Assembly: GCF_014397255.1 (NCBI RefSeq)
Contig: NZ_CP060724.1
Span: 124,001-188,000 of the forward strand
Origin: Weissella diestrammenae
GTDB lineage: Bacteria > Bacillota > Bacilli > Lactobacillales > Lactobacillaceae
Reading direction: 5' to 3'
Length of the DNA stretch: 64,000 bases
How positions within the stretch are numbered: position 1 is the stretch's first letter; the number at the start of each line of letters is the position of its first letter. The notes under the pieces were generated by a model. The model saw only the letters and a program-made list of their open reading frames with translations. It was not told where the DNA came from and ran no database searches. Shown here one piece after another: positions 31,217 through 45,831 of the stretch. The translations under genes and the position numbers were made by a program.

Positions 31217-31471
31217 TTAATCTTCACGAATACCATTTTCACGTTGAATCTGCTTCACCTTTTCAGGTGTTACCTCTTGTCCATCTTTATCAAAGACTTG
31301 TAGCATTTCAACCTGTGAACGAAAAGCGGCCCGGAAATTTGCTAGGAATTCAGCCCTTAAATCTTTACGTTCTGCTTCCTCTTCAGGTGTTAGGCCCGCC
31401 GCCGTCTTTGCTTTTGCTGCTAATTCATTAATTCTTGTCCGAACAGCTAACATATGTGAATCTTCTGCCAA
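31217..31471 (-). CDS. DUF896 (YnzC) protein
   Basis: An 84-residue, all-helical cytoplasmic protein with RINELAAKAKTAAGLTPEEEAERKDLR-like pattern and a C-terminus VTPEKVKQIQRENGIRED, typical of DUF896/YnzC; function unknown. The start given is TTG at 31471, nine bases after GGAGG; an in-frame ATG at 31453 also fits the family start but has a poor ribosome site. Divergent from lexA and upstream of yneF, as in the Bacillus lexA-yneA-ynzC region, where it is under SOS control. No SOS box is visible here. Confidence 0.85.
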   Translation of the reverse strand: MAEDSHMLAVRTRINELAAKAKTAAGLTPEEEAERKDLRAEFLANFRAAFRSQVEMLQVFDKDGQEVTPEKVKQIQRENGIRED

Positions 31472-31560
31472 TATTCATTCCTCCATTCAACCATCTCTTC
31501 AACATTATAACATTTTATTACAATGGTCGATATGAGGCAGTTTAATTGTCAGTATCACAG

Positions 31561-31566
31561 TATAAT
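31561..31566 (+). promoter_or_regulatory. -10 element of lexA
   Basis: A consensus TATAAT 36 bp before the lexA ATG; the -35 at 17 bp (CAGTTT) is poor. No palindromic SOS operator (GAAC-N4-GTTC type) overlaps it. Confidence 0.5.
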
Positions 31567-31601
31567 ATAAAACAAATGGCCTAATATGAAGGAGTTTGTT
31601 G

Positions 31602-32213
31602 ATGGCAAAAAAAGAAGAGAAACAACTCAACGTTTTACGTTTTATCTATGAAACAAGTCACAGAAATGGATTCCCACCAACGATTCGTGAAATTGGGGAC
31701 GGATTGGGCATGACTTCCCCATCGACAGTTCATGGCTACCTGACTCGTTTGCAAGATAAAGGGTACTTGTTTAGGGATCCAGATAAACCCAGAGCGCTCG
31801 AAATAACAGCAAGTGGTTTAAATGCAATGGGCATCCAACAAAATCCAACCATTCCATACTTAGATGGTCCTTGGTCAAAATTTAATCCGGAAACGGCGCA
31901 TCGCTCACCCTTACCAGATAATCTGATTCGTTACGCCGGCAAATTATTCTTAATGCGAATGACTGGTGATAACATGCAGAAAATTGGTATCTTTGATGGC
32001 GACGACTTATACATCAGTCAACAAAATGATGCTGAAAACGGTGAAATTGTCGCCTATATTGGTCAAGATCAAAAGGTTAAAATTGCACGCTTCTTTAGAG
32101 AGCGTGCTCAGTATCGTTTTCAACCTGAAAACAATCAATACCATCCAGAAATTATGTTTGAACTCACCATCATCGGCCGTGTAGTGTCGCTATTTCGTAA
32201 TTCAATTTATTAA
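31602..32213 (+). CDS. lexA: LexA-like repressor, autocleavage site and catalytic dyad lost
   Basis: A 203-residue LexA homologue. The winged-helix domain is well kept (residues 10-68: FPPTIREIGDGLGM, SPSTVHGYLTRLQDKGYL, RDPDKPRALEI). The C-terminal domain has the S24 fold (IGIFDGDDLYIS, GEIVAYI, FQPENNQYHPE). But GDSM is GDNM (Asn 124 for the catalytic Ser), the catalytic Lys aligns with Ala 162 in IARFFRE against VKRFYKE of Bacillus, and the VxAG cleavage site is absent (YLDGPWSKF). Autocleavage therefore seems impossible. The ATG at 31602 follows AAGGAG by seven bases. Divergent from ynzC-yneF. Target genes unknown; it may repress constitutively or respond in another way. Confidence 0.9.
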   Translation: MAKKEEKQLNVLRFIYETSHRNGFPPTIREIGDGLGMTSPSTVHGYLTRLQDKGYLFRDPDKPRALEITASGLNAMGIQQNPTIPYLDGPWSKFNPETAHRSPLPDNLIRYAGKLFLMRMTGDNMQKIGIFDGDDLYISQQNDAENGEIVAYIGQDQKVKIARFFRERAQYRFQPENNQYHPEIMFELTIIGRVVSLFRNSIY

Positions 32214-44694: not shown

Positions 44695-45831
44695 CTATTC
44701 TTCAATGTCTAATGCAATATCATCTTCTGTTTTTGCGTTAGATACTTCCTCGGCTGGTGCTTCACCTTCGCCCAAGTATGCCTGTCTCACCCGTTTGAAA
44801 ATATCATCATAAGCATTTTTATTTTCAGGATCATCAAGCCAACGAATAACATTAACCTTTCCTTGACCAATCTTGTCCCCATTATATGAGAACCATGAGC
44901 CAGCCTTATCAATAATATCTTTATCAACCGCCAAGTCAATCATCTCACCGGTTTTAGAAATACCCTTTCCAAACATAATTTCGACTTCCACCTCGCGGAA
45001 AGGCGCAGCCACTTTATTCTTGACCACTTTAATGCGCGTAATATTTCCAACTGACTTAACATTATCATCATCAGCCTTTGTCGCATCAATACCACCCTTT
45101 CGACGAACATCTAATCGAACAGTTGAGTAGAATTTAAGCGCACGTCCACCTGGTGTTGTTTCAGGATTACCAAACATGATCCCAATCTTTTCTCGTAATT
45201 GATTAATGAAAATAACCGTCGTGCCAGTTTTCAAAATAGCACCGGACAATTTACGAAGGGCTTGAGACATCATACGCGCTTGTAGCCCAACACTCGTATC
45301 ACCGATTTCGCCGTCAATTTCTGCCTTCGGCGTTAAAGCGGCAACAGAATCAACTACGACCATATCAACGGCACCTGAATTAATCAAAGCATCAGCAATC
45401 GACAAACCTTGTTCACCTGTATCTGGTTGTGACAAAAGCAATTCATCAACATTGACCCCCAACGCTTTAGCATACTCAACATCCATGGCATTTTCCGCAT
45501 CGATATAGGCCACAATACCACCATTTGCTTGCGCTTCAGCCGCGGCATGGAGCGCTAATGTTGTTTTACCTGATGATTCGGGACCATAGATTTCAATAAT
45601 ACGCCCCTTAGGGTAGCCACCAACACCAAGTGCAATATCCAACTTCAAAGACCCAGTCGATGTTGATTCAACCTTAGTAAACTTAGAATCACCCATCTTC
45701 ATAACCGCACCTTTTCCAAATGACTTCTCAATTTTCTTTAGTGCTTCATTCAACGCTGCATCCCGTGCTTTAGGGTCTGTTATTTTACCTTCGATTTTCT
45801 TATTTGGGTTAATATTTTTCCCACTTGCCAT
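44695..45831 (-). CDS. recA: Recombinase RecA
   Basis: Strand-exchange ATPase. The 378 residues show Walker [16 protein letters not shown] near 85, Walker [13 protein letters not shown] near 160, and the loop [11 protein letters not shown] near 205 then [24 protein letters not shown], plus an acidic C-terminus. TGGAGG precedes the ATG. RecA would normally trigger LexA autocleavage, but the LexA-like protein of this window lacks the active site; no SOS box is visible in the 41 bp between recA and pncC or just inside. It lies at the end of the ymfF-ymfH-rodZ-pgsA-pncC-recA string. Confidence 0.97.

Follow-up and report, generated by a model that had tools for sequence, protein, structure and literature searches.

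An apparently uncleavable LexA in the genus Weissella, released from the SOS network and possibly dedicated to one cell-wall gene

The window, that is, the whole 64,000-nucleotide stretch of Weissella diestrammenae DNA analyzed here, carries a lexA gene beside a divergent neighbor, together with an intact recA. The features on which the analysis draws are listed below by position in the window.

31217..31471, minus strand: divergent gene and conserved neighbor of lexA (ORF call), presumably ynzC/DUF896-like
31472..31601, plus strand: ynzC–lexA intergenic region, lacking the SOS box found before 41 of 48 outgroup lexA genes
31602..32213, plus strand: lexA, encoding a 203-residue LexA ortholog predicted to be non-cleavable (TIGR00498, PF01726, PF00717)
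31602..31805, plus strand: N-terminal winged-helix DNA-binding half, residues 1–68, with PF01726 at residues 6–65 and low dN/dS
31848..31892, plus strand: segment TIPYLDGPWSKFNPE in place of the Ala-Gly cleavage region (25 Weissella LexAs aligned with 48 others)
31971..31973, plus strand: Asn124 codon, where other LexAs encode the catalytic Ser (LexA alignments, solved chains)
32085..32087, plus strand: Ala162 codon, where other LexAs encode the catalytic Lys (LexA alignments, solved chains)
44695..45831, minus strand: recA, intact, with no SOS box within 250 bp upstream

The product of the ORF at 31602–32213 scores 130 bits against the TIGR00498 LexA equivalog profile (cut-off 110.95) over residues 3–200. 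Both PF01726 (LexA winged helix) and PF00717 (S24) exceed their cut-offs, which bears out the description in the first-pass annotation of a well-kept DNA-binding half joined to a recognizable S24 fold. The gene is a single chromosomal copy adjoining ynzC, and its product groups with other LexAs in the phylogenetic tree; judged by its sequence, it is a true LexA ortholog. The closest named record is the LexA of an unclassified Lactobacillaceae metagenome-assembled genome, Po218_bin95 (74% identical). A second lexA was looked for, as had been advised; the 1.66-Mb genome, assembled as a single contig, yielded one LexA and no further S24 repressor, the only additional S24-profile match being a signal peptidase I.

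Self-cleaving LexA proteins of the S24 type feature an Ala-Gly cleavage site, a catalytic Ser and a catalytic Lys, and none of the three is present in the window protein. Asn124 occupies the Ser position, Ala162 occupies the Lys position, and TIPYLDGPWSKFNPE (residues 83–97) stands where the VPV-G-VTAG segment would be. Alignments to 48 outgroup LexAs and to solved LexA chains agree on all three replacements, which had already been read from the sequence in the first-pass annotation. When compared with 3jso, Ala162 lies opposite the Ala in EVTVARLKKQ, which we take to be the engineered K156A site. Lys160, two residues N-terminal of Ala162, could point to the same side of the strand; it cannot complete a catalytic dyad because no Ser is present. 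Given these residue losses, RecA-stimulated self-cleavage of the window LexA appears very unlikely, as had been proposed. An AlphaFold2 model built from a six-sequence alignment was set aside as weak (mean pLDDT 56), and solved LexA chains were therefore aligned instead of running a fold search. Among these chains, the Lys of Thermotoga maritima LexA (PDB chain 3k2z_A) falls one residue off in the ungapped alignment because TLAKFY replaces the TVKRF of other LexAs.

Profile searches of 28 Weissella genomes identified lexA in 25, with no match in G018, G086 and G161 (W. koreensis KACC 15510). These three lexA-less genomes retain recA and dinB. The assignment of the genomes to Weissella rests on plasmid sequence: a 6-kb portion of the second G161 contig proved identical to plasmid NC_015756.1 of W. 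koreensis KACC 15510, and the best matches of G155 plasmid stretches were to W. cibaria and W. confusa. Among the 25 LexAs, the Ala-Gly site is retained in none, at least one of Ser and Lys is missing in every protein, and no protein keeps two of the three features: Ser alone is kept in four (G055, G158, G169 and G163) and Lys alone in six (G152, G154–157 and G159). By contrast, all three features are intact in 48/48 LexAs of other Lactobacillaceae, as well as in the four LexAs sampled from more distant bacteria, a difference far beyond chance. A branch with 100/99 support sets the Weissella LexAs apart, and the residues now found at the former Ser position (N, A, T, H, D) and the former Lys position (Y, A, G, L, S, D) are diverse. 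The simplest history would be one ancestral loss followed by drift at the former catalytic positions. The genus-wide distribution also upholds the earlier argument that the replacements are old and do not reflect a sequencing error. In three other Lactobacillaceae genera, each represented by one genome (G017, G028 and G034), no lexA was found; these may be further independent losses or, for G017 and G028, incomplete genomes.

The outgroups define what the Weissella promoters have lost. Their SOS box is of the CRAAC-N4-GTTYG type; before lexA it ends exactly 21 bp upstream of the best −10 in 31 of the 41 genes that carry it, and it usually overlaps a TTGAAA-like −35, a repressive layout. An ordinary SOS box before lexA is missing throughout the genus, G167 having an imperfect one, and no box was found at the readable recA and dinB promoters of the genus apart from that of recA in the lexA-less G161, where a 9-of-10 match lies 195 bp before the gene. 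Nor does a box precede umuC in the four closest genomes. The genes themselves persist: recA and dinB are kept, and nearly all Weissella species have a second Y-family polymerase (G163 and G164 have five Y-family matches each, compared with two in most of the genus). Genome-wide, most Weissella genomes contain no more SOS-box matches than the reversed-pattern control gives, and 27 of the 29 fetched matches lie inside ORFs. Such counts fail to separate outgroups from the genus, and box position at defined genes was therefore used. The best explanation appears to be that the SOS network dissolved, along with autocleavage, in or before the Weissella ancestor. As the boxes at lexA, recA and dinB are gone, DNA damage would not be expected to act through LexA.

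Despite these losses, lexA is probably not a dead gene. The dN/dS ratio of the DNA-binding half is 0.008–0.06 in most informative genus pairs, which points to strong purifying selection on that half. For the C-terminal half, the ratio approaches zero among the W. confusa-like species and is 0.19–0.29 among G166, G113 and G151, compared with 0.004–0.06 in outgroups; DNA binding therefore seems to have been kept while C-terminal parts became freer in some lineages. The C-terminal value of the G171/G172 pair was disregarded as an artefact, its codons being thrown out of register by an internal stop. Individual tips of the genus do show decay: the G171 gene (L054) contains an in-frame TGA, those of G164 (L056) and G163 (L057) have shortened C-terminal halves, and three species have lost the gene completely.

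One box of the SOS type remains at a promoter. In the window genome, GAAC-N4-GTTC occurs 12 times, with 11 copies inside ORFs and the sole intergenic copy, GCGAACGTACGTTCGC, located around C1:1477577 before a gene for a secreted LysM/CAP protein. SOS-type boxes that had been returned earlier in G153 and G137, when the gene was unknown, both precede orthologs of this LysM gene. Eighteen species combine a full-length LexA with the ortholog; in 17 of them (G000, G055, G113, G137, G151, G153–159 and G165–169) the promoter carries the box, matching the core at 7 or 8 of its 8 bases, and G160 is the exception with half a box. The box is absent in 3/3 species in which the ortholog accompanies a damaged LexA (G163, G164 and G171). 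The Fisher p of 0.003 for this association ignores shared ancestry, which counts against the explanation favored below. The right flank of the box varies by clade (GTTCGC or GTTCCCC), and the recognition helix of LexA is conserved in the genus/outgroup alignment.

The LysM ortholog was not found in the three lexA-less species (G018, G086 and G161), and outside Weissella only LysM-domain matches were obtained. It was likewise not found in G152, G162, G170 and G172, all of which keep LexA; in these four, LexA would therefore have another role or be decaying. The protein ends in a CAP domain in the window genome and in NlpC/P60 in W. confusa/cibaria-like species; with the C-terminal domain swapped, the conserved parts are therefore the signal region, the LysM domain and the promoter. 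A pattern made from the LysM-promoter boxes hits, across the 28 genomes, this promoter and three intra-ORF sites only; recovery of the LysM boxes is circular, and the absence of other promoters alone is informative. An imperfect intergenic site in G000 (CGTACAATAGTTCG, C1:1300735) was left aside. In G162, where the full-length LexA is kept and the LysM ortholog is missing, an intergenic site (CGAACGTGAGTTTG, L176 at 1501) lies about 60 bp before a transporter-like ORF and is a candidate other target. In G157, the recA, dinB and LysM-gene pieces are out of order; this genome is 66% complete by marker genes, and its assembly may be scrambled.

The geometry of the LysM promoters differs from that of the outgroup lexA promoters. 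The gap between box and −10 is 24–26 bp, compared with 21 bp at outgroup lexA. For this measurement G157 was left out, and four promoters (G168, G166, G113 and G151) had their −10 assigned by eye, where a script had chosen another TA-rich hexamer (gap 18 or 19) and the −10 aligned with relatives gives 25 or 26. Relative to the predicted start site, the box center lies at approximately −42.5 to −44.5, and the best −35 hexamer matches the consensus at no more than 3 of 6 positions. This is the layout of class II activation, with an operator near −41.5 and a poor −35. Because the box lies 3–5 bp upstream of the outgroup repressing position and no good −35 is present, the promoters look activator-dependent.

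These properties can be set beside several characterized proteins. E. coli LexA S119A and K156A are engineered non-cleavable mutants; Weissella proteins naturally carry Ala at the Lys position (window) or at the Ser position (W. confusa-like species), in addition to loss of the cleavage site, although their state evolved and is conserved over a genus, whereas the mutants come from laboratory selection. Lambda CI, a cleavable repressor of the S24 superfamily, activates PRM from an operator centered near −42, close to the center of the LysM box; it differs from LexA in its DNA-binding fold, and activation by Weissella LexA is suggested by promoter layout only. A naturally uncleavable LexA occurs in Synechocystis sp. 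PCC 6803, where the protein lacks the Ala-Gly site and the catalytic Ser and is not an SOS regulator (PMC7567884, PMC4759255); it acts as an activator of the hox operon and as a repressor elsewhere (PMC4759255; PMC7567884). The window protein is likewise an ortholog without Ala-Gly and Ser that appears to be kept under selection. Unlike Synechocystis, Weissella belongs to an unrelated lineage, the loss covers the whole genus and extends to Lys in most species, and there is one recognizable candidate target as against a broad regulon. IrvR of Streptococcus mutans is a LexA-like protein outside RecA control that is tied to a cell-surface protein and still self-cleaves (PMC7101444); Weissella LexA would share the first two properties, whereas IrvR retains cleavage and is not a lexA ortholog. 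With the canonical Lactobacillaceae LexA/SOS regulon (PMC3616900), Weissella shares the profile match, the neighboring gene, the DNA-binding half and the GAAC-N4-GTTC core; it differs in lacking the cleavage residues, the autoregulatory box and the recA and dinB boxes. That RegPrecise-type study from 2013 called the LexA regulon universal in Lactobacillaceae, using a sample without Weissella (PMC3616900).

On balance, we lean modestly toward an uncleavable LexA that has left the SOS circuit and now serves a single cell-wall gene, perhaps by activating it. Autocleavage would have been lost in or before the Weissella ancestor, as would the SOS boxes of lexA, recA and dinB, and LexA would remain as a DNA-binding protein, presumably dimeric, that cannot be cleaved. 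The one clear operator left to it would be the GAAC-N4-GTTC box before the genus-specific secreted LysM gene, at which LexA would likely recruit RNA polymerase, with the output set by LexA level or by some signal. The fuller statement, that the whole genus abolished LexA-controlled SOS and turned LexA into an uncleavable activator of one secreted LysM protein, is a tentative one, to which we give somewhat less than even credence. The activator option raised in the first-pass annotation thus gains support from the position of the remaining box and stays unproven, and the earlier interpretation as a whole is partly supported.

That LexA acts as a permanent repressor of SOS genes, an option raised in the first-pass annotation, would accord with the intact DNA-binding half but is highly improbable, because its operators are missing at lexA, recA, dinB and, in four genomes, umuC, and genome-wide box counts mostly do not exceed the control. 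Drift toward loss, in which autocleavage disappeared, SOS was abandoned and the remainder is decaying, would explain the three complete losses, the in-frame stop of G171, the shortened halves of G163 and G164 and the relaxed C-terminal half in G166, G113 and G151; it fits poorly with genus-wide purification of the DNA-binding half, constraint on both halves in the W. confusa-like group and the persistence of a conserved operator, and we consider it quite improbable.

Two further readings concern the LysM promoter. Its box might serve another transcription factor, with LexA having other targets or none, as the four species with LexA and no LysM ortholog, the half box of G160 and the clade-specific right flank would suggest. 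Against this, the core is identical to that of the SOS box at outgroup lexA promoters, species with a damaged LexA lack the box, and the recognition helix is conserved, which makes another factor unlikely. Alternatively, uncleavable LexA might bind the LysM box as a constitutive repressor relieved by some other signal, such as a ligand, phosphorylation or Clp-type proteolysis. LexA represses elsewhere, a box ending near −38 could still hinder polymerase, and Synechocystis LexA represses without cleavage and is phosphorylated (PMC7567884); nevertheless, the upstream shift of the box by 3–5 bp and the lack of a good −35 argue against repression, and we regard it as a less probable mode, though one deserving real weight. 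If LexA does bind the box, the promoter layout and the Synechocystis precedent somewhat favor activation.

In a full-text literature search with partial coverage, no paper described an uncleavable LexA from Weissella or from lactic acid bacteria at large. Since such a protein is known from Synechocystis, the kind itself is not new; the novelty would lie in a Gram-positive lineage having lost cleavage throughout a genus, in the dissolution of its SOS regulon and in the proposed move to a single cell-wall gene. Beside Synechocystis, Weissella would thereby be the second natural example, independently arisen, of a LexA that no longer answers to DNA damage; the case is clean in that it spans a whole genus and the intact LexA state is found in all neighboring genera sampled. 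A study of dextransucrase in W. cibaria reasoned from SOS LexA with an E. coli matrix (PMC9498152); that reasoning would need correction, as would the statement of a universal LexA regulon (PMC3616900). A LexA-dependent SOS response is predicted to be missing from Weissella, with consequences for mutagenesis, for tolerance to drugs and for the induction of prophages in food and probiotic strains, and the genus may offer a tractable example of a global repressor turning into the regulator of one gene.
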